From an uncultured Ilumatobacter sp. (GTDB lineage Bacteria; Actinomycetota; Acidimicrobiia; Acidimicrobiales; Ilumatobacteraceae): 64,000 bases of DNA. The position numbers were made by a program, and so were the translations under genes. Location: assembly GCA_937919625.1 (NCBI GenBank), contig CALFRK010000114.1, positions 1-64,000 on the forward strand, given 5' to 3'. Positions 51,647 through 60,839 of the stretch are shown here, one piece after another; position 1 is the first letter of the stretch; each line of letters starts with the position of its first letter. The notes beneath the pieces are model-generated. The model saw nothing but the letters and a program-made list of their open reading frames with translations. It was not told the DNA's origin and searched no databases.

Positions 51647-52099
51647 TCAGGGAACGAGCGGAAGTCCCTGCCCGCTATAGGCGACGACACCGCCCTCCAT
51701 GTCGTAGACCTGATCGAAACCGAGCTGCTGCATCAGCGCCGCTGTCTGACCCGACCGATTACCCGACCGGCAATACAGCAGATAGGTGCCGTCGTGATCG
51801 AGGGCGGCGATGTCGTCGCTGAAACTGGCCTCATAAAAATCGATCATCGTTGCCCCGTCGATGTGGCCCTCGGCAAACTCCTCGGGCGTTCGTACATCGA
51901 TCACGGTCACGTCAATATTGCCACTGAGTTCGAGCGCCTGCTGTGGCAATACCAGACCGAACGCCGCCGAATTGGATGCGCTCTCGGCCACCGGCGCCTT
52001 CGCTACATCATCGCCTCCGCACGCTGCGAGCCCGAATGCCCCCACCACTGCGAGCGCAAGAATCCGGCGGGCCGATCGATGTCGCGGCTGGTGGTTCAC
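51647..52099 (-). CDS. Rhodanese-domain lipoprotein
   Basis: A 150-aa exported sulfurtransferase-like protein. The signal and lipobox (ILALAVVGAFGLAAC) place C27 as the lipidated residue, so the domain faces outside. The rhodanese domain (about 48-150) has VIDVRTPEEFAEGHIDGA and the active-site loop YCRSGNRSGQ with C110. A strong AGGAG lies seven bases before GTG 52099, which rules out the longer frame. It is the first member of the sulfur locus, with a palindromic operator candidate in its promoter. Confidence 0.88.
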   Translation of the reverse strand: MNHQPRHRSARRILALAVVGAFGLAACGGDDVAKAPVAESASNSAAFGLVLPQQALELSGNIDVTVIDVRTPEEFAEGHIDGATMIDFYEASFSDDIAALDHDGTYLLYCRSGNRSGQTAALMQQLGFDQVYDMEGGVVAYSGQGLPLVP

Positions 52100-52133
52100 G
52101 TCATATCTCCTGACAGGGATGTTTCTGATCGAG

Positions 52134-52139
52134 ATGTTA
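52134..52139 (-). promoter_or_regulatory. -10 hexamer TAACAT of rhodanese lipoprotein gene
   Basis: TAACAT lies about 35 bases before the GTG and leaves a leader long enough for the AGGAG ribosome site. The palindrome 52141-52152 is immediately upstream. Confidence 0.45.
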
Positions 52140-52140
52140 G

Positions 52141-52152
52141 TTGTACGTACAA
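52141..52152. promoter_or_regulatory. Perfect 12-base palindrome TTGTACGTACAA, candidate operator
   Basis: Perfectly symmetrical and placed in the -35/-10 spacer of the rhodanese promoter. Followed by ATACAG. A near copy occupies the promoter of the dioxygenase operon (53609-53626). The TTGTA/TACAA half-sites resemble those of HutC-type GntR regulators, and a UTRA GntR gene ends the same locus. Confidence 0.6.
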
Positions 52153-52221
52153 TACAGGGCGTACGGCGGCTACACACCTCGTCGATCGTGTCGACGACGA
52201 TTGCCAAGCGGTTCCCGTCGG

Positions 52222-53511
52222 TCAGGCAATGTCGGCGATCGTCGACGTGAGCGCGGCGATGCCCTCGTCGAGTTCGTCGGCGGTGACATTCAACATCGGG
52301 GCGAGCCTGATCACGTTGCCGTACAAGCCGCCTTTCCCAACCAGCACGCCGTGCCGCTTGCTGGCCTCGTGGAACTCGCCCGTGCGAGCCTTGTCGGGCT
52401 CGATGCCGCCCGGTTCACAGATCTCGAACGCCCACATCAGGCCGCGCCCACGCATCTCAGCGATCCATGGAGTGGCGTCGGCGACCGGCTGCATCGCAGC
52501 GGCGAACCGTGCGCCCATCGCCTTGGCGTTGGCCTGAAGGCCCTCCTGCTGCACCGTGCGCAATGTGGCGATGCCGGCCGCAGCCGACAGCGGATTACCA
52601 CCGAAGGTCGAAAAGTTGAGGACCTTGATCGTGTTCATGATGTCGGCGCGGGCGACGACACCGGCGAGCGTGACGCCGTTGCCGACCCCCTTGGCGAAGG
52701 TCAACATGTCGGGCACGATGCCATGCGCCTGGTAGCCCCAGAAGTGCTCACCAGTGCGTCCCCATCCGGTTTGCACCTCGTCGGAAATGAACAGGATGCC
52801 GCGGTTCGAGAGCTCCTTCCCGAACCGGCCGAACATTCCGTCTGGCGGGGTGGCGAACCCACCGACGCCCTGGATCGGTTCGGCGATCATCGCCGCAACA
52901 TCGCCAGCCGATGTCATGTCGAGCAGCTGCACCAGGTCGTTGACGCATGCGTCGCTATAGGCGTCGTCGTCGAGGTCACGGAACGGCGACCGCAGACGGT
53001 AACCGCCCTGCACGAACTGCACCTGCAGCCCCGACAGCGCCGTCGATCTCCAGGATGAGTGTGATGTGACCGCCTGGGTGCTGAACACCCGACCGTGATA
53101 GCTGTTGCGGATTGCCAAGATCTGGCTCGACTTGCGGTACGAGGTGGCTAGCAGAATCGCGGCATCGTTGGCCTCGCTACCCGACGGCGTGAAGTACACC
53201 CGGGCATCCGGAATCCCCGAGGCGGCGGCAACCATCTCGGCAAACTCGATCATCGGCTCGGACAGATACAGAGTCGACGTGTGTACCACCTTCGCTGCCT
53301 GCGCTTGCACCGCCGCCGTGACGGCCGGATGATCGTGGCCGATCATGGTGGTGAGTACGCCACCGAAGAAGTCGAGGTAACGATTGCCCTCGAGATCGAA
53401 GACGTAGCTACCGGCACCATGATCGATCGAGATCGGATCGGCGTAATACGGGGCAAGGAATGACGGCAGGACGCGTCGATACCTGGCGGCGAGATCAGCA
53501 CTGGTAGTCAC
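52222..53511 (-). CDS. Class III aminotransferase (AGXT2-like)
   Basis: PLP-dependent omega-amino-acid aminotransferase of 429 aa. PISIDHGAGSYVFDLEGNRY, TPSGSEANDAAILLATSYRK, NSYHGRVFSTQAVTSHSSWR and FISDEVQTGWGRTGEHFWGY lead to the PLP lysine in LTFAKGVGNGVTLAGVVARA. The overall pattern is closest to alanine-glyoxylate/3-aminoisobutyrate-pyruvate aminotransferases. The amino donor is not determined. GTG start with TATCCT eight bases upstream. It lies between the two parts of the sulfur locus on the opposite strand, and any link to it is unclear. Confidence 0.9.
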   Translation of the reverse strand: MTTSADLAARYRRVLPSFLAPYYADPISIDHGAGSYVFDLEGNRYLDFFGGVLTTMIGHDHPAVTAAVQAQAAKVVHTSTLYLSEPMIEFAEMVAAASGIPDARVYFTPSGSEANDAAILLATSYRKSSQILAIRNSYHGRVFSTQAVTSHSSWRSTALSGLQVQFVQGGYRLRSPFRDLDDDAYSDACVNDLVQLLDMTSAGDVAAMIAEPIQGVGGFATPPDGMFGRFGKELSNRGILFISDEVQTGWGRTGEHFWGYQAHGIVPDMLTFAKGVGNGVTLAGVVARADIMNTIKVLNFSTFGGNPLSAAAGIATLRTVQQEGLQANAKAMGARFAAAMQPVADATPWIAEMRGRGLMWAFEICEPGGIEPDKARTGEFHEASKRHGVLVGKGGLYGNVIRLAPMLNVTADELDEGIAALTSTIADIA

Positions 53512-53519
53512 GGCGACCG

Positions 53520-53525
53520 AGGATA
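53520..53525 (-). promoter_or_regulatory. -10 hexamer TATCCT of aminotransferase gene
   Basis: TATCCT is eight bases before GTG 53511, in the 144-base divergent gap to the dioxygenase operon. Confidence 0.45.
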
Positions 53526-53597
53526 CCGGTGCCGAGATCTCGAGAAGGTGTCGACCGCGGCCGACTGTCGACGCCAGCCGATCTCGAAGTCGGGCGC

Positions 53598-53627
53598 TTG
53601 ACCCGATTTTGTCCGTACATATACAGT
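53598..53627 (+). promoter_or_regulatory. Promoter of persulfide dioxygenase operon (TTGACC ... TATACA/TACAGT)
   Basis: A -35 TTGACC (53598-53603) is followed after 16 bases by TATACA or after 18 bases by TACAGT. Transcription would start near 53634, giving a short leader with GCAGGGG before ATG 53656. This is the most canonical sigma-70-like promoter in the window, and its spacer holds the operator-like motif. Confidence 0.6.
53609..53619 (+). promoter_or_regulatory. Operator-like motif TTGTCCGTACA
   Basis: Matches the rhodanese-promoter palindrome in 10 of 11 bases and is likewise followed by an ATACAG stretch, within the -35/-10 spacer. Palindromic symmetry is weaker here (two mismatches over 12 bases). 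Confidence 0.45.
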
Positions 53628-53655
53628 GGGCGCTGGACGAATGGAGCAGGGGATC

Positions 53656-55035
53656 ATGAAGTTCAACCAGTACTACTTGGAGTGTTTGTCACATGCCTCG
53701 TACCTGATAGGCGACCAGACAACCGGCCGGGCGATCGTCGTCGACCCGCAACGAGACGTCGGCGAGTATGTCGCAGACGCCGCTGAGGCGGGCCTCAAGA
53801 TCGAGCTTGTGATCGAGACCCACTTTCACGCCGACTTCCTGTCCGGTCACCTCGAACTCGCCCAAGCAACGGGCGCCAAAATCGTCTACTCCTCAGTCGC
53901 CGAGACCGAGTTCGAGTCGCTCGGCGTCGCAGACGGAGAGCGGTACTCGCTTGGCGACGTCACACTCGAGTTTCGCCACACACCGGGACACACCCCAGAG
54001 TCGTTAAGCATCGTGATCTTCGAACACGCCGACGACAAGGTCCCCTACGGCGTGCTCACAGGCGACACGCTGTTCATCGGCGACGTTGGCCGCCCCGACC
54101 TGCTGTCATCGATCGGGTTCACTCGTGAGGAACTCGCGAACCAGCTCTACGACTCGCTTCACAACAAGTTGATGACGCTCCCCGACTCGACCAAGGTGTA
54201 TCCCGCTCATGGCGCCGGTTCGTCGTGTGGCAAAAACCTCTCGACCGACCTCTGGTCGACCATCGGAGACCAAAAGGCCTGCAATTACGCCCTGCTGGCG
54301 CCGGACAAGCCGACGTTCATGGATCTGGTCACCGAGGGCCAGCCGCCAGCGCCCGGCTACTTCATCTACGACGCGATCCTCAACCGCAAGGACCGCGATC
54401 TGCTCGACGAGACGGCCCTTCCGACCTCCATGACGTACGGCCAGGTCATCGAGGCAATCGATGCCGGGGCGATGCTGATCGACGGCCGGGACCCTGAGGA
54501 GTTCGCTCATGGGCATCTCCGGGCGGCACTCAACGTCGGCCTCTCCGGGCGCTACGCCGAGTTCGCCGGATCGATCCTTCCGCACGACGTCGACATCGTG
54601 CTGGTCGTCGACCCCGGTTACGAACTCGAGGGCAAGAATCGCCTCGCCCGAATCGGCTTCGACCGCGTGATCGGGTACCTCGACGATCCGTACAAGGTGA
54701 TGTTCCTACACCGCGACGATGTCCAGGTCGGATCGCGGCTGACCGCCCAAGCTTTCAACGAGCGACTCGCCGAAATCGACGACATCCAAATCGTCGACGT
54801 CCGCAATCCAGGCGAGACCGGCGACGGGATCATCGCCGGAGCGGTCACGATCCCCGTCGGACAGCTGCCCGCCCGAATCGACGAACTCGACCTCACCCGT
54901 CCCACCGTCGTGTATTGCGCCGGAGGCTATCGGTCATCTGTCGCGGCCAGCCTGTTACGCCAACGCGGCTTCGCAGACGTGAGCGACGTGCTTGGTGGGT
55001 ACGGCGCCTGGATCCTGACGGTGCAGAGCGCCTGA
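53656..55035 (+). CDS. MBL-fold persulfide dioxygenase fused to rhodanese domains
   Basis: A 459-aa fusion of ETHE1/CstB type. The N-terminal metallo-beta-lactamase domain (about 1-240) carries H56-x-H58-x-D60 and H65 in ETHFHADFLSGH, then RHTPGHTPESLS and TGDTLFIGDVGRPDLL, typical of mono-iron persulfide dioxygenases that turn glutathione- or other persulfides into sulfite. Two rhodanese domains follow: the first (about 270-365) has Asp where the Cys should be (VVDPGYE), the second (about 375-459) has the active VVYCAGGYRSS. ATG 53656 has GCAGGGG before it; ATG 53641 is an alternative. Confidence 0.9.
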   Translation: MKFNQYYLECLSHASYLIGDQTTGRAIVVDPQRDVGEYVADAAEAGLKIELVIETHFHADFLSGHLELAQATGAKIVYSSVAETEFESLGVADGERYSLGDVTLEFRHTPGHTPESLSIVIFEHADDKVPYGVLTGDTLFIGDVGRPDLLSSIGFTREELANQLYDSLHNKLMTLPDSTKVYPAHGAGSSCGKNLSTDLWSTIGDQKACNYALLAPDKPTFMDLVTEGQPPAPGYFIYDAILNRKDRDLLDETALPTSMTYGQVIEAIDAGAMLIDGRDPEEFAHGHLRAALNVGLSGRYAEFAGSILPHDVDIVLVVDPGYELEGKNRLARIGFDRVIGYLDDPYKVMFLHRDDVQVGSRLTAQAFNERLAEIDDIQIVDVRNPGETGDGIIAGAVTIPVGQLPARIDELDLTRPTVVYCAGGYRSSVAASLLRQRGFADVSDVLGGYGAWILTVQSA

Positions 55036-55084
55036 TGCGGCTCGCTGTACCGCGACGATTCCTAGTCCCATTCTCGGAGGCAAG

Positions 55085-56617
55085 GTGACCCGCCTCGGCT
55101 TTGCGCTGTTGAGCGACAGCTGCATCGGGTGTCATGCCTGCACGGTTGCGTGCAAGAGCGAACATGATGTTCCACTCGGCGTCAACCGCACCTGGCTGAA
55201 GTACATCGAGACCGGGGCATTCCCGAATACCGGTCGCTCGTTCTCGGTGATGCGCTGCAACCACTGCGATGACGCGCCGTGTATGAAGATCTGCCCGACG
55301 AGTGCCCTGTACCGCGCCCCCAACGGGGTCGTCGACTTCGACGACTCACGCTGCATCGGGTGCAAGGCCTGCATGAATGCCTGCCCATACGACGCAATCT
55401 TCATCAACCCAGAGACGAAGACGGCGCAGAAGTGCAACTTCTGCAACCACCGCGTCGAGGTCGGGCTCGAACCGGCGTGTGTGGTGGTGTGCCCGACCCA
55501 TGCGATCGTCACCGGCGACCTGGATGATCCCAACTCGGAAGTCTCCAAGATCGTGGCCCGCGACAAAACCGCCGTCCGGGCCCCCGAGCAGGGCACCAAT
55601 CCGCGGGTGTTCTACCGCGGCGTCGATCAGGCCTCGCTCGATCCAACCCGCACGGCGATCAAGAGCGACGGCATGATCTGGGCCGAGACGACGCCGAGCC
55701 ACCCCACCCTCTCACCGATCCAGATCGAACACTCTGGCGAAGGCATCGTCGCCCGCACGGCCTACACCACAGCTCATCACATGACATGGAAGTCGATGGT
55801 GTCTGGCTACCTGGTCACCAAGGCCGTCGCTGCAGGTCTGATGCTCGTCGCATCGCTGCTCGTGGTGCTCGGGCACGGCAGCGACCAAGCCGCTGTCGGC
55901 ATCGTTCCGGCCGTCATGGCCGGCGTGTTGATCGCCGCCACCGGCGCCCTGTTGGTCGGTGACCTCAAACAGCCCGGCCGCTTTCTGTTCATCCTCACCA
56001 AGTCGAACAACAGCTCGTGGCTGGTTCGGGGCGCCTGGATCCTCGGGGCGTTCGCCGGGCTCGTCGCCGCGTGGGGGCTGCTCGGCATTCTCGACCAAGG
56101 CGACAGCCTCCAAATCCTTGCCGTTCCGATCGCCCTGCTGGCGGCCGGGGTGGCCGGGTACACCGCCTTCCTGTTCGGCCAGTGCGAGGGTCGCGATCTG
56201 TGGCAGACACCACTGTTGCTGCCGATCTTGCTGGCCCAAGCCGTCGTCGCCGGCGGCGCTGCCTATTCATTGCTCGATGTGCTGATGGAGATCCCAGAGC
56301 CGCGTGCGATTCGGATCGCCTTCCTGGCCGCGATCGGTGGACTCGCCCTGCTGATCGGCACCGAGTTGTGGTCAAAGGGTTCACGCCATGTCGAACTGGC
56401 GACGCTCGAGATGACACGCGGTCGGTACGCCAGCCAGTTCTGGTTCGGCGGTGTGCTCAACGGCCTGATCGTGCCCGCCGTCTTGCTGATCCTGGTGCTC
56501 TCCTCCGACACGACCAGCCCGTGGCCCACCGCCCTGGCGGGCATCGCCTCCCTGTTCGGCATGTTCGCCTATGAGGACGCCTACGTCCGCGCCGGCCAAT
56601 CGGTCCCCCTCTCATGA
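55085..56617 (+). CDS. Fused 4Fe-4S electron-transfer and DmsC/NrfD-like membrane-anchor subunit
   Basis: A 510-aa fusion. Residues 1-190 are a DmsB/SoeB-like ferredoxin with four cysteine clusters (CIGCHACTVACKSE, CNHCDDAPCMKICP, CIGCKACMNACPYDAIF, CNFCNHRV ... ACVVVCP), binding four 4Fe-4S clusters. From about residue 235 there are eight membrane segments of the DmsC/quinone-anchor type (SGYLVTKAVAAGLMLVASLL onward, GTELWSKGSRHVELATLEMT). These are normally two genes (soeB and soeC, or dmsB and dmsC). GTG start after a good CGGAGG. It would pass electrons from the Mo subunit to menaquinone. Confidence 0.88.
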   Translation: MTRLGFALLSDSCIGCHACTVACKSEHDVPLGVNRTWLKYIETGAFPNTGRSFSVMRCNHCDDAPCMKICPTSALYRAPNGVVDFDDSRCIGCKACMNACPYDAIFINPETKTAQKCNFCNHRVEVGLEPACVVVCPTHAIVTGDLDDPNSEVSKIVARDKTAVRAPEQGTNPRVFYRGVDQASLDPTRTAIKSDGMIWAETTPSHPTLSPIQIEHSGEGIVARTAYTTAHHMTWKSMVSGYLVTKAVAAGLMLVASLLVVLGHGSDQAAVGIVPAVMAGVLIAATGALLVGDLKQPGRFLFILTKSNNSSWLVRGAWILGAFAGLVAAWGLLGILDQGDSLQILAVPIALLAAGVAGYTAFLFGQCEGRDLWQTPLLLPILLAQAVVAGGAAYSLLDVLMEIPEPRAIRIAFLAAIGGLALLIGTELWSKGSRHVELATLEMTRGRYASQFWFGGVLNGLIVPAVLLILVLSSDTTSPWPTALAGIASLFGMFAYEDAYVRAGQSVPLS

Positions 56618-56636
56618 ATCCACGTTGGGAGTTCTC

Positions 56637-59465
56637 ATGACCCTTGCCAATCATCCGCCACACGACCGGTGGCACAATTGGACCGAGCTCGATGCCAAAG
56701 CATGGCCGACCAAGGTCGAGCGCAATTACACGATCGTTCCGACCACCTGTTTCAACTGCGAGGCGGCATGTGGACTGACAGCCTTCATCGACAACGAGAC
56801 CGGCGAGATAGCCAAGTTCGAGGGCAACCCCGAGCACCCCGCCAGCCGCGGACGCAACTGCGCCAAGGGCCCAGCCACCCTCAACCAGGTCGACGACACA
56901 GAACGTATTCTGTACCCACTCAAACGCTCGGGCCCACGCGGCAGCGGCAAGTGGGAACGGGTCTCGTGGGACCAGGCGCTCGACGAGATCGGCGCCCGTA
57001 TCCGCAAAGCACTCCAGGAGGACCGCAAGAACGAGGTGATGTACCACGTCGGGCGTCCGGGCGAAGACGGCTACACCGAGCGCGTACTCAAAGCGTGGGG
57101 CATCGACGGACACAACAGCCACACCAATATCTGCTCGTCGAGCGCCCGAATCGGCTACCAGTCGTGGATGGGACACGACCGCCCGTCGAGCGACTTCGCC
57201 AACGCCGAGGTGATCTTCTTGATCTCCGCCCACCTCGAGGCCGGCCACTACTTCAATCCCCACGCCCAACGGATCATGGAGGCCAAGCAGAAGGGCGCCA
57301 CCGTGATCTGTGTCGACCCGCGCCTGTCGAACACCGGCGCCAAGGCCGACTATTGGCTGGCCACCTGGCCGGGCACCGAACCGTTCATGCTGCTGGCGAT
57401 CGCCAAGCTGTTGATCGAGAACGGAGCGTGGCAACGCGACTTTGTCCGCCGCTGGGTTAACTGGGAGACGTACCTGCGTGAAACCCGACCCGACCTAGCC
57501 TGCGAGTTCGAGTCGCTGGAGCAAGCCCTGCTCGACGAGTACGCCGAGTACACGCCCGAGCGGGCCGAGCACATTTGCGGCGTCAAGGCCCAGACGCTGC
57601 GCGAGATCGCCGAGATCATCGGTGCCCATCCCACGAAGTTCGCCTCCCACAATTGGCGAGCCGCCGGTGCCGGCAACCTGGGCGGCTGGCAAGTCGCACG
57701 CTGCCTGTTCTTCCTCAATGTGCTCACCGGATCGGTCGCCACGAAAGGCGGCACGGCCGGCAATGGCTGGAACAAGTTCGTGCCCCACCCGCCCAAGGGC
57801 GGCCAGCCGATCACGACCTGGAACGAGATGAGCTGGCCCAAGGAGTATCCGTTGGCCTATCACGAGATGTCGATCCTGCTCCCTCACTTCCTCAACGAGG
57901 GCCGCGGCAAACTCGACACATACTTCAGCCGCGTGTACAACCCGATCTGGACCAACCCCGACGGTTTCTCATGGATGGAAGCACTGCTCGACGAGAGCAA
58001 AGTCGAGTGCCACGTCGCCTTGACACCGACGTGGTCAGAAACCGCCTGGTACGCCGACTACGTATTGCCGATGGGGCTCGGTTCCGAGCGCCACGATGTG
58101 GCCAGCTTCGAGACCCACGCCGGCCGCTGGATCGGCTTTCGGCAGCCGGTGATGCGCCGGTATGCCGAACTCAACGGCGATCCGATCGGACCCAACAGCA
58201 GAACCCACGAGTTCAACAAGGGCGAGGTGTGGGAGGAGAACGAGTTCTGGATCGACCTGTCGTGGCGGATCGACCCCGACGGCTCGCTCGGCATACGGCA
58301 GTACTTCGAGAGCATCGACGCTCCCGGTACGGCGATGGGCATCGACGAGTATTACGGCCGAATGTTCGCCGACAGTGTTCCCGGTCTTGCCGACGATGCC
58401 GCAGCGGCGGGAGTGACGCCGCTCGAGTACATGCGCGACCGCGGCGCCTACGCAATTCCCGGCGATATGTACCAGCCGTACGAGAAGCTCGTCGACGCGT
58501 CGGCGATCGAGGGTTGCACCAAGCGCGCTGATGGCGTTTACGTCAAACCCGGCACCTCTGGCGCGTGGGACGGCTCCGACGACACGCTCGACGCGATCGA
58601 ACTCGCCAAGCTCGGAGATGGCTCGCCGGCGGTCGAGGTCGACGGCGAGCTCAAGGCCGGATTTCCGACACCGTCGATGAAGCTCGAGCTGTTCTCGACC
58701 ACCTTGAAAGACTGGGGTTGGCCTGAGTACGCCACGCCAAAGTGGATTCCGTCACACGTCCACTGGGAAGACCTCGACATGGATGGAAACGAGCGCATCC
58801 TGCTGCCGACGTTCCGTATTCCGACCCTGATCCATACCCGCTCTGCCAACTCCAAGTGGCTAAGTGAAATCAGCCACCGGCACCCGCTGTGGATACACCC
58901 GAGCGACGCTGAAAAATTGGGCATCGAAGAAGAGGGCCTGGTGCGAATCAGCACGCGGATCGGTCATTTCGTGATTTCGGCATGGCGCACCGAGGGCATC
59001 CGCCCAGGCGTGGTCGCCGCGTCTCACCACATGGGCCGCTGGCGTATCGACGAGGACAAGGCTCGCTCGTGGGGCGCAGGAAAGGCCAAGATCGATCACG
59101 ATGGCAGCAAGTGGAAACTCACGCGGGAACACGGCATGCGCAACTGGGACTCAGGCCCTGACGGCGATCCCGACACGCAACGGATCTGGTGGAACGACAC
59201 GGGCGTGCATCAGAACCTCACTTTCTCGGTGCAACCCGACCCGATCTCCGGGATGCAGTGTTGGCATCAGCGGGTTCGGGTCACGCCTGCCGAAGCCGAC
59301 GACCAATACGGCGACGTGGTGGTCGACACCGCCAAGTCTCGCGAGGCGTATCTCGACTGGCTAACGAAGACCCGCCCAGCGCCGGGGCCCGGCGGCTTGC
59401 GGCGCCCGTTGTGGTACGCACGCCCACTCAAGCCCGAGCCCAGCGCCTACCGCACGGCGCAGTAA
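56637..59465 (+). CDS. Molybdopterin oxidoreductase catalytic subunit (SoeA/PsrA-like, probable sulfite dehydrogenase)
   Basis: A 942-aa bis-MGD enzyme. The N-terminal cluster motif is C38-x2-C41-x3-C45 with C75 (TTCFNCEAACG, GRNCAKGPA). The Mo ligand appears to be C166 in HTNICSSSARIG, the cysteine type seen in PsrA, PhsA and SoeA. There is no twin-arginine signal, so it faces the cytoplasm as SoeA does. ILYPLKRSGPRGSGKWERVS and ATHNWR-like FASHNWRAAGAGNLGGWQVA agree with SoeA-type proteins as I remember them. With the dioxygenase next door making sulfite, oxidation of sulfite to sulfate is the best reading; polysulfide or thiosulfate reductase is the alternative. Confidence 0.8.
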   Translation: MTLANHPPHDRWHNWTELDAKAWPTKVERNYTIVPTTCFNCEAACGLTAFIDNETGEIAKFEGNPEHPASRGRNCAKGPATLNQVDDTERILYPLKRSGPRGSGKWERVSWDQALDEIGARIRKALQEDRKNEVMYHVGRPGEDGYTERVLKAWGIDGHNSHTNICSSSARIGYQSWMGHDRPSSDFANAEVIFLISAHLEAGHYFNPHAQRIMEAKQKGATVICVDPRLSNTGAKADYWLATWPGTEPFMLLAIAKLLIENGAWQRDFVRRWVNWETYLRETRPDLACEFESLEQALLDEYAEYTPERAEHICGVKAQTLREIAEIIGAHPTKFASHNWRAAGAGNLGGWQVARCLFFLNVLTGSVATKGGTAGNGWNKFVPHPPKGGQPITTWNEMSWPKEYPLAYHEMSILLPHFLNEGRGKLDTYFSRVYNPIWTNPDGFSWMEALLDESKVECHVALTPTWSETAWYADYVLPMGLGSERHDVASFETHAGRWIGFRQPVMRRYAELNGDPIGPNSRTHEFNKGEVWEENEFWIDLSWRIDPDGSLGIRQYFESIDAPGTAMGIDEYYGRMFADSVPGLADDAAAAGVTPLEYMRDRGAYAIPGDMYQPYEKLVDASAIEGCTKRADGVYVKPGTSGAWDGSDDTLDAIELAKLGDGSPAVEVDGELKAGFPTPSMKLELFSTTLKDWGWPEYATPKWIPSHVHWEDLDMDGNERILLPTFRIPTLIHTRSANSKWLSEISHRHPLWIHPSDAEKLGIEEEGLVRISTRIGHFVISAWRTEGIRPGVVAASHHMGRWRIDEDKARSWGAGKAKIDHDGSKWKLTREHGMRNWDSGPDGDPDTQRIWWNDTGVHQNLTFSVQPDPISGMQCWHQRVRVTPAEADDQYGDVVVDTAKSREAYLDWLTKTRPAPGPGGLRRPLWYARPLKPEPSAYRTAQ

Positions 59466-59491
59466 ACCGGCCGCACACCCTGGCGACAGCT

Positions 59492-59540
59492 ATCGTTTCG
59501 GCAGGAAACTGAGCTAGCGCCGTGAAAGGCACGAAACGAT
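59492..59540 (+). promoter_or_regulatory. Inverted repeat overlapping the GntR gene start
   Basis: ATCGTTTCG (59492-59500) pairs with CGAAACGAT (59532-59540), whose last two bases are the A and T of the GntR ATG. In RNA a 9-bp stem would hide the start codon with the GAAAGG site in the loop; on DNA it could be an autoregulatory operator. Confidence 0.45.
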
Positions 59541-60324
59541 GAGCAGCGACGAATTCGCAGAGGGGGCACGGGTCCTCGATCGAGGCGCGTTGCTTCCGTT
59601 GTGGTCGCAGCTCGAACTCGAGTTGCGGCGCCGGATGGAACTTGGCCACTTTAGTTCGCGGTTTCCGACCGACCGTGAGTTGATGGAGATCTACGCCGTC
59701 AGTCGACACACAGCACGCCACGCCGTAAGCCAACTCGGGGCTGATGGCATCCTGCGGCGCTCGAGAGGGGTCGGAACGTCGGTCGATCTGCGCACGTTCG
59801 AACGCTCGCTCGGTGCCCTGTACAGCCTGTTTCAGGTTGTCGAAGAATCCGGTGTCGTGCAACACAGTACGGTCCGCACCCTCGAACGTGTCGTCGATGC
59901 CGACGCCGCAGCTAATCTGGGGCTTGCTCCCGACGCTGAACTGGTGTTGATCGACCGGTTGCGATTCGCCGGATCCGAGCCGCTTGCGATCGATCGGATC
60001 TGGCTGCCTGCAGAGATCGCCGAAGGGCTGATCGACGCCGACTTCACTCACACGTCTCTCTACACCGAACTCGAGCGCACGATCGGTAGGAGACCGAACG
60101 AAGGCTGGGAACGAATCCACCCGGCAATCCCCAGCGACGACCATCGAACCAGTCTGCAACTCGAGGACGGCGAAGCGGTGTTCTGCATCGAACGGCTCGG
60201 CACCTTCAGCGGCGAGCCGATCGAGTGGCGGGTCACAACGATTCGCGGTAGCCGCTTCACGTTTGTCGCCGATTGGACGGCCGGTCAACGAAGCGAGCTG
60301 CGACTCAAGATGATCACTGTCTGA
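59539..60324 (+). CDS. GntR-family regulator with UTRA ligand-binding domain (HutC-type)
   Basis: A 261-aa repressor-type protein. The winged helix (about 15-85) reads [40 protein letters not shown] and [12 protein letters not shown]. The UTRA domain (about 105-255) has [20 protein letters not shown] and [20 protein letters not shown]. It is the last gene of the sulfur-oxidation run, 73 bases after the Mo subunit, so it is a natural candidate for sensing a pathway intermediate and binding the TTGTACGTACAA-type sites. That link is inference. Confidence 0.9.
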
Positions 60325-60335
60325 TCGGATCCGGC

Positions 60336-60839
60336 ATGACCTCGCTGCACCCAGATATCGCCCATACGGCCGACCTGCTCGGCACCTGGAGTGGCGAGGG
60401 GCACGGCAAATACCCGACTATCGATCCGTTCGGCTATGCCGAATCGGTCACGTTCGCCCATGTCGGCAAGCCTTTCCTCGCTTACCAACAGCGCACTCGC
60501 TCATTGGCAACGGCCGACCAACCTGGCCAGCCGATGCATTCCGAGTCGGGCTACTGGCGTTTTCCGGCACCTGGACGGATCGAGGTCGTCCTCAGCCACC
60601 CCACCGGGGTGCTCGAACTCGAGGAGGGCACGATCGAGATCGCCCTCGACGGCACAGTCGTGATCGACTTGGCGACAACCAGCGTCGCCTTCAGCTCGAC
60701 CGCTAAATCGGTAACCGGCGTTCAGCGCCTGTTCCGAATCAAGGGCGACATCATGACTTACGACCTTCGGATGGCTGCGGTCGGCCTGCCGATGCAGCAT
60801 CATCTGTCGGCACGGCTCGTTCGCCAGGCTCTCGGCTGA
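60336..60839 (+). CDS. Nitrobindin / THAP4-like heme-binding beta-barrel
   Basis: A 167-aa heme protein proposed to isomerise peroxynitrite and bind nitric oxide. [20 protein letters not shown] is the family signature at the barrel opening, [20 protein letters not shown] and [19 protein letters not shown] follow, and [11 protein letters not shown] near the C-terminus gives the proximal heme histidine. Start ATG 60336 was chosen over the frame running back into the GntR gene. Eleven bases separate it from the regulator, so the two may share a transcript. Confidence 0.9.

Follow-up and report, generated by a model that had tools for sequence, protein, structure and literature searches.

Cytoplasmic oxidation of sulfite to sulfate has been described for SoeABC of Allochromatium, a complex that passes electrons to quinone. 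Excerpts of two papers list consecutive accessions for SoeABC of A. vinosum (PMC6382920) and describe it as lacking a Tat signal (PMC6620896), and part of a review predicts that the anchor SoeC lies in the membrane the other way round from other NrfD-like anchors (PMC8076601); SoeC is itself termed NrfD-like in passages of some papers. PsrABC and PhsABC belong to the same molybdenum-enzyme (CISM) superfamily and are exported. On the side of sulfur supply, CstB is described, in the section of the paper that treats it, as turning two persulfides into thiosulfate (PMC9774590). Surveys of sulfite oxidation count SoeA, SorA, SUOX, and AprA. In taurine dissimilation (Tpa-Xsc-Pta), sulfite is released by Xsc.

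Here we describe a locus in a 64,000-nucleotide stretch of DNA from an uncultured Ilumatobacter sp. (hereafter, the window). We propose, with a probability of about 0.7, that its molybdenum complex is a sulfite:quinone oxidoreductase that faces the cytoplasm and fills the role of SoeABC, although it stems from another branch of the CISM superfamily. The proposal is based on linkage to metallo-beta-lactamase (MBL)-rhodanese genes, on taurine clusters that hold the complex in related genomes, and on the charges of the membrane anchor. Loci outside the window are cited by number (L069 and the like).

Organization of the locus

A compact plus-strand unit (53626-60324) encodes a CstB-type dioxygenase, a fused Fe-S/anchor subunit (BC), a molybdopterin catalytic (Mo) subunit, and a GntR/UTRA regulator, separated in that order by 49, 19, and 73 bases (Table 1). 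All genes named for the locus had Pfam matches over cut-off, and those listed by an earlier sequence-only reading were all found in place; the class III aminotransferase lies within the span of that reading, which had passed over it. Two starts call for comment. The dioxygenase probably begins at 53641 or 53656, and the Mo subunit more likely begins at ATG 56637 (M23 of the ORF, after GGGAG) than at 56571, where the ORF opens.

Table 1. Features of the locus, with positions in the window
Feature	Position	Strand	Evidence and remarks
Rhodanese-like lipoprotein	51647..52207	-	Pfam Rhodanese 70 bits; lipobox LAAC; Cys in YCRSGNRS; start uncertain
Class III aminotransferase	52222..53511	-	Aminotran_3 301 bits; divergent from dioxygenase gene
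CstB-type persulfide dioxygenase	53626..55035	+	Pfam Lactamase_B and Rhodanese
Fused Fe-S and NrfD membrane-anchor subunit	55085..56617	+	Fer4_11 88.4 bits; NrfD PF03916 71.5 and 74 bits
Molybdopterin catalytic (Mo) subunit	56637..59465	+	PF00384, PF01568, and PF04879 over cut-off
Predicted Mo-ligand Cys codon (residue 188 of the 964-aa ORF)	57132..57134	+	Aligned with PsrA Cys and DmsA Ser
GntR/UTRA regulator	59539..60324	+	UTRA 95.7 bits; GntR 38.3 bits

The flanking genes recur to different extents in relatives. The lipoprotein, which probably has a role in extracytoplasmic sulfur handling, has a 49% homologue near the cluster of one relative (L105). Homologues of the aminotransferase were found in L069 (84%, over half of the query at the locus edge) and L070 (76%), which come from the same genus and family as the window, and its identity to the aminotransferases of the taurine loci is 29-33%. 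The regulator has homologues near the cluster in L069 (74%), L070 (63%), and L078, L082, L102, and L105 (51-55%). A THAP4-like heme-binding ORF (60273-60839; Pfam 164.7 bits) overlaps the 3' end of the regulator gene as called, and its start may lie later.

The dioxygenase consists of an MBL domain, a rhodanese domain that by eye lacks the active Cys, and a second rhodanese domain with an active Cys431. Its best full-length solved relatives are 3tp9 (280.7 bits) and 3r2u (215.8 bits), the latter of which we take to be CstB of S. aureus, followed by BpPRF (5ve3; 101.2 bits), a shorter protein with chains of 373-377 aa. Alignment with 3tp9 and 3r2u showed that the GAGSxCGK motif and the C-terminal rhodanese Cys are kept, so that the window enzyme has every element of the CstB architecture (MBL, inactive rhodanese, active-Cys rhodanese, and GAGSxCGK) and resembles 3r2u over its whole length, including the two conserved Cys motifs. 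The sequence-only reading had taken it for an ETHE1-type enzyme that makes sulfite. The product is less certain than that reading had it: the enzyme is CstB-like, and because CstB makes thiosulfate, according to the cited section (PMC9774590), a supply of free sulfite is not assured.

The catalytic subunit belongs to a clade of its own

With a [4Fe-4S] motif, a Cys ligand, and no Tat signal, the Mo subunit is in all three respects as in SoeABC. The alignment of Cys188 with the Cys of PsrA, at a place where DmsA has Ser, supports the Cys ligand proposed earlier. No RRxFLK-type Tat motif occurs in the first 70 residues; such a motif is present in two ArxA-like rows of the alignment, in PsrA, and in an Allochromatium Psr-like row, while PhsA and DmsA have twin Arg without the exact motif and SoeA has none. 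Among NCBIfam models, the subunit stayed below cut-off in all 22 that it matched.

As SoeA references for the trees we used proteins of A. humboldtianum and A. warmingii, chosen by gene order and absence of Tat, A. vinosum not being among the matches. In A. warmingii, a Tat-less Mo gene (977 aa) lies ahead of genes for a 251-aa Fe-S protein and a 325-aa DmsC protein; in A. humboldtianum, the Mo protein (986 aa) is near-identical, and the ORF caller did not pick up its B and C genes. We infer that both are SoeA, and the A. warmingii gene set agrees with the excerpts on A. vinosum SoeABC in order (PMC6382920) and in the lack of Tat (PMC6620896). Another A. warmingii stretch (L064, 5617-7770) encodes a Mo protein that lacks a Tat motif at its start and falls close to PhsA in the tree; a small Fe-S gene and a gene for a 727-aa protein come next. 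The ArxA-like label of the reference rows L060 (A. humboldtianum) and L041 (Azoarcus KH32C) is our own assignment. L087 and L074 were left out for internal stops, the Sulfurovum row covers the C-terminal reading frame only, and the PsrA and ArrA rows are partial; the trees were built without the other five Mo proteins of the window's genome, the second Mo protein of Thermomicrobium roseum, SoeA of A. aeolicus and of Thioalkalivibrio, and TtrA.

In a 33-row tree the window protein fell in an 18-row clade (support 100/100) with relatives from its order, T. roseum, Rhodococcus jostii, Natrinema, and a Sulfurovum homologue. This clade joined the ArxA-like pair at 98/96, with SoeA apart, a join for which the tree program warns that long branches meet and that it may be false; a 20-row tree with four ArxA-like rows gave the same join at 100/99 without the warning. 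In both trees the Mo subunit stands beside the ArxA clade and not within it. Approximately unbiased (AU) tests rejected a group of the window clade with SoeA (p 0.017 in the 33-row tree and 0.0011 in the 20-row tree). A group with PsrA and PhsA, which would have spoken for a polysulfide or thiosulfate reductase and which the sequence-only reading had named as an outcome that would refute it, was likewise rejected (p 3.7e-116).

Of 296 genomes sampled across the window's phylum, 33 encode a member of the family (E ≤ 1e-120), and homologues that cover 97% or more of the query at 49-58% identity occur in plasmid records of T. roseum, R. jostii, and five haloarchaea. Among 229 genomes from the class to which A. 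humboldtianum belongs, four gave a match at 1e-90, each with 36% identity; three of these matches have a twin-Arg RRxF motif, and the remaining one, L117, gave no clear ORF. Among viral contigs, 240 stretches fitted the family pattern and none was confirmed.

The anchor is of the NrfD type and is predicted to face the cytoplasm

The Fe-S and anchor parts are indeed fused, as the sequence-only reading had it, but the anchor that it called DmsC is NrfD (PF03916), with no DmsC match at E ≤ 0.01; Allochromatium SoeC, for its part, is DmsC (PF04976, 44.9 bits). Among solved structures the Fe-S part of the fused subunit had its best match in PsrB of T. thermophilus (2vpw_B, 172 bits). Its Fe-S half is 46-47% identical to ArxB-like proteins (169 and 187 bits), 45% to PhsB of E. 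coli (133 bits), 36% to SoeB (122 bits), and 50% to a Sulfurovum protein (208 bits). The ArxABC-like complexes resemble the window complex in having the nearest Mo clade, a similar Fe-S subunit, and, in L060, an NrfD anchor; they differ in bearing Tat signals, in an anchor inserted the opposite way, and in separate subunits. The sulfur genes are all missing from the annotation of the DNA around L041.

For the topology count, we set aside 5 of 42 loci in which less than 95% of the fusion was present and treated Sulfurovum separately. A simple hydropathy scan gave 6-8 helices in the fusions, and in all 37 full-length ones the loops that face the same way as the Fe-S domain were richer in Lys and Arg (11 versus 2 in the window; the margin is narrow in a few, such as L105 with 8 versus 7 and L073 with 7 versus 5). 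That side is consequently predicted to be cytoplasmic, which in the window would place both the N terminus and the Fe-S domain in the cytoplasm. The pattern is reversed in two ArxC proteins (4 versus 6 and 2 versus 10), PsrC (4 versus 12), and DmsC (4 versus 8); SoeC of A. warmingii (12 versus 3) is as in the window clade. In the Sulfurovum homologue, B and C are separate and the charges follow the exported pattern (5 versus 15); its branching position inside the Mo clade has a support of only 47/40, so the turn of the anchor may have occurred inside the clade. On the Sulfurovum mangrovi plasmid (L040, 5780-7020), the Mo homologue is split across reading frames, with a Tat-like RRSFLK motif just upstream in another frame.

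These data bear on the proposal of the sequence-only reading that the complex is an ordinary SoeABC, orthologous to the A. vinosum enzyme. The suggested job, the missing Tat signal, the Cys ligand, a similar Mo size, and an equal charge pattern in SoeC are all features in common. The two differ in other respects: the Mo subunit groups with exported ArxA-like proteins in both trees, the group with SoeA is rejected, the Fe-S part is closer to ArxB-like proteins than to SoeB, the anchor is NrfD and not DmsC, and a fused BC gene precedes A where Allochromatium has separate A, B, and C genes. Orthology with SoeABC is therefore improbable, and we did not retain membership in that family.

Genomic neighborhoods in relatives

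The Mo gene was present in 44 of the 148 genomes of the order (E ≤ 1e-60). DNA around it was fetched for 38 of the 43 genomes other than the window's, several of these stretches being short where contigs end, and neighboring genes were called by tblastn and by a codon-usage ORF caller that missed some genes. In 14 of the 44 Mo-positive genomes, an MBL-rhodanese gene (E ≤ 1e-30) shares a contig with the Mo gene at a distance of no more than 10 kb. Copy number and genome size would predict 0.29 such genomes (Poisson P 2e-19, kinship ignored); six of these 14 genes are only 32-36% identical to the window dioxygenase. Such genes were also commoner in Mo-positive (34/44) than in Mo-negative (47/104) genomes as a whole (Fisher P 2.6e-4, kinship ignored). 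Counted by locus, 14 of 39 (the window and 38 relatives) contain a match, that of L100 covering only 21% of the query, and 25 have none within the fetched DNA; in 21, with several contigs ending early, the fetched DNA holds neither an MBL-rhodanese gene nor Tpa, Pta, or Xsc.

The sister genomes L069 and L070 share the order SulP, carbonic-anhydrase-like, dioxygenase, SQR-like, BC, Mo, and GntR. SulP passes its model; the carbonic anhydrase matched no NCBIfam model at 1e-20 and was identified by eye. Against the type III SQR model, whose cut-off is 525 bits, the SQR-like protein of L070 reaches 220.6. The SQR-like gene of these clusters has no close copy in the window's genome (one match, 29%). 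In the window (53511-55085), the dioxygenase gene directly abuts the aminotransferase gene and BC, with no SulP, carbonic-anhydrase-like, or SQR-like gene. Their absence looks like the outcome of two losses.

A second type of neighborhood is linked to taurine. In 4 of the 39 loci, Tpa- and Pta-like genes lie beside BC-Mo, two of them also with TauABC-like genes and two also with Xsc: L083 and L084 have Tpa-, Pta-, and Xsc-type genes around BC-Mo, L083 with TauABC-like genes in addition, L086 has Tpa, TauABC, and Pta, and L087 has Tpa and Pta. The assignments differ in firmness. Xsc of L084 is firm (985 bits versus a cut-off of 676). Pta reaches its subfamily cut-off of 310 in L084 (312.8) but not in L086 (269.7), where TauA also falls short of the taurine model (131 versus 304 bits). 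Tpa, a class III aminotransferase, was assigned from its context. In L083 and L084, BC-Mo thus sits within a taurine dissimilation cluster; the window differs in having no such genes, and its genome has no Xsc over cut-off. Taurine-linked and dioxygenase-linked members interleave on the tree, L083 and L084 joining L078 and L080 at 95/83, and we therefore consider that the partners change while the shared metabolite, sulfite, stays.

At L096, a dioxygenase gene is accompanied by TusA, DsrE, ArsR, and another MBL protein. The plasmid pRHL3 of R. jostii RHA1 (L038) carries three MBL-fold genes near the complex, one of them 51% identical to the window dioxygenase, together with DsrE and TusA. The pRHL3 sulfur island also holds two ArsR regulators, a DUF202 pair, and Mrp. 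In T. roseum, a gene annotated as a metal-sensitive regulator, which we take to be CsoR-like, stands in front of the complex.

An enzyme that oxidizes arsenite (or another oxyanion) in the cytoplasm, as a Tat-less cousin of ArxA, would fit the join to ArxA-like rows in both trees, and an excerpt of PMC6620896 proposes a soeABC-like cluster for arsenite oxidation in Thioalkalivibrio. We judge it very unlikely given the neighbors, which include persulfide, sulfide, and taurine genes, with no arsenic family among the 25 commonest neighbor families in either of two scans (of 80 and 102 families), and given that the ArxA-like enzymes examined have Tat motifs and outward anchors.

Sulfur genes elsewhere in the genome and proposed pathway

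The search for sqr and sox genes that the sequence-only reading had suggested gave one SQR over the type III cut-off (contig 47, 562 bits versus 525) and no SoxB, soxB being the sox gene searched. AprA was also absent from the genome, which encodes one PF00174 (sulfite-oxidase-fold) protein. The SQR gene, of the selenoprotein subtype, adjoins an ORF that by eye resembles a sulfatase (L107, 1420-2676 and 2807-4126).

From these components, a pathway from persulfide through sulfite to sulfate is likely. The SQR encoded elsewhere in the genome would convert sulfide to persulfide, and the CstB-type dioxygenase would oxidize the sulfur of the persulfide to sulfite; by analogy with CstB, its own rhodanese domain may convert some of this sulfite to thiosulfate. 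The Mo subunit would then oxidize sulfite to sulfate, with electrons passing through the Fe-S half and the NrfD half to quinone, as in homologues, while the fusion and the charge pattern are predicted to keep the active site in the cytoplasm. In the related genomes with taurine clusters, the same complex would receive its sulfite from Xsc. Genomic context thus favors the part of the earlier proposal that concerned cytoplasmic sulfite oxidation fed by a persulfide dioxygenase and independent of SoxB. Several points weigh against the proposal: the nearest Mo clade is ArxA-like, many loci have no partner gene in the fetched DNA, the window's genome lacks both an Xsc over cut-off and the SQR-like gene of the sister clusters, it encodes a PF00174 protein, and the supply of sulfite is uncertain. 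We found no clade member with an established activity, and searches of open-licence papers on SoeABC, taurine, Acidimicrobi, Actinobacteriota, Thermomicrobi, and fused NrfD contexts showed no evident description of the clade.

The CstB architecture, with its intact C-terminal rhodanese Cys and the thiosulfate product reported for CstB (PMC9774590), also accommodates a scheme in which the dioxygenase yields thiosulfate and the complex oxidizes thiosulfate or another sulfane compound instead of sulfite. That scheme leaves the taurine clusters unexplained, where sulfite and not thiosulfate is expected, and we give it little credence. Least probable of the readings weighed is a polysulfide, thiosulfate, or tetrathionate reductase on the cytoplasmic side, to which the NrfD anchor, the PsrB and PhsB matches of the Fe-S part, and the top raw NCBIfam matches (PhsA and TtrB, far under cut-off) would point, since the PsrA/PhsA grouping is rejected and the linkage is to dioxygenases and Xsc, which are sulfite makers; PsrABC and PhsABC share the superfamily, the Cys ligand, and (Psr) the NrfD anchor with the window complex, and differ in being exported.

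Implications for sulfite oxidation

Taking sulfite as the substrate, we can envisage that cytoplasmic sulfite:quinone oxidoreductases evolved twice, independently. In the second case, an exported complex of the Arx/Psr type would have shed its Tat signal, its Fe-S and NrfD subunits would have become fused, and its anchor would have flipped in the membrane. The resulting enzyme would now oxidize the sulfite of SQR-PDO and taurine pathways in Rhodococcus, in Thermomicrobium, in some members of the window's phylum, and perhaps in haloarchaea. For this broader evolutionary account we see the odds as evenly balanced. If it is true, a membrane anchor has been turned round in evolution, with the charge reversal legible in the sequence.

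Because the enzyme belongs to a different Mo-enzyme branch from SoeABC, SoeA-based surveys could miss it; database labels may also already call some members soeA, since the portion of a MAG study that bears on this annotates SUOX or soeABC in most of its phyla. In Bohai Sea sediment, pdo transcripts rose in twenty phyla while SoeABC was undetected and SUOX and SorA were of low abundance, according to an excerpt of that study (PMC12345210). Such survey counts would change if the 33 members found among the 296 sampled genomes of the phylum are sulfite oxidases that lie outside the SoeA clade. The enzyme would also be a candidate for an unseen sulfite-oxidizing step in heterotrophic sulfide oxidizers where SoeABC and SorAB are reported to be rare or absent, and could close the route from SQR and PDO through sulfite to sulfate in these heterotrophs.
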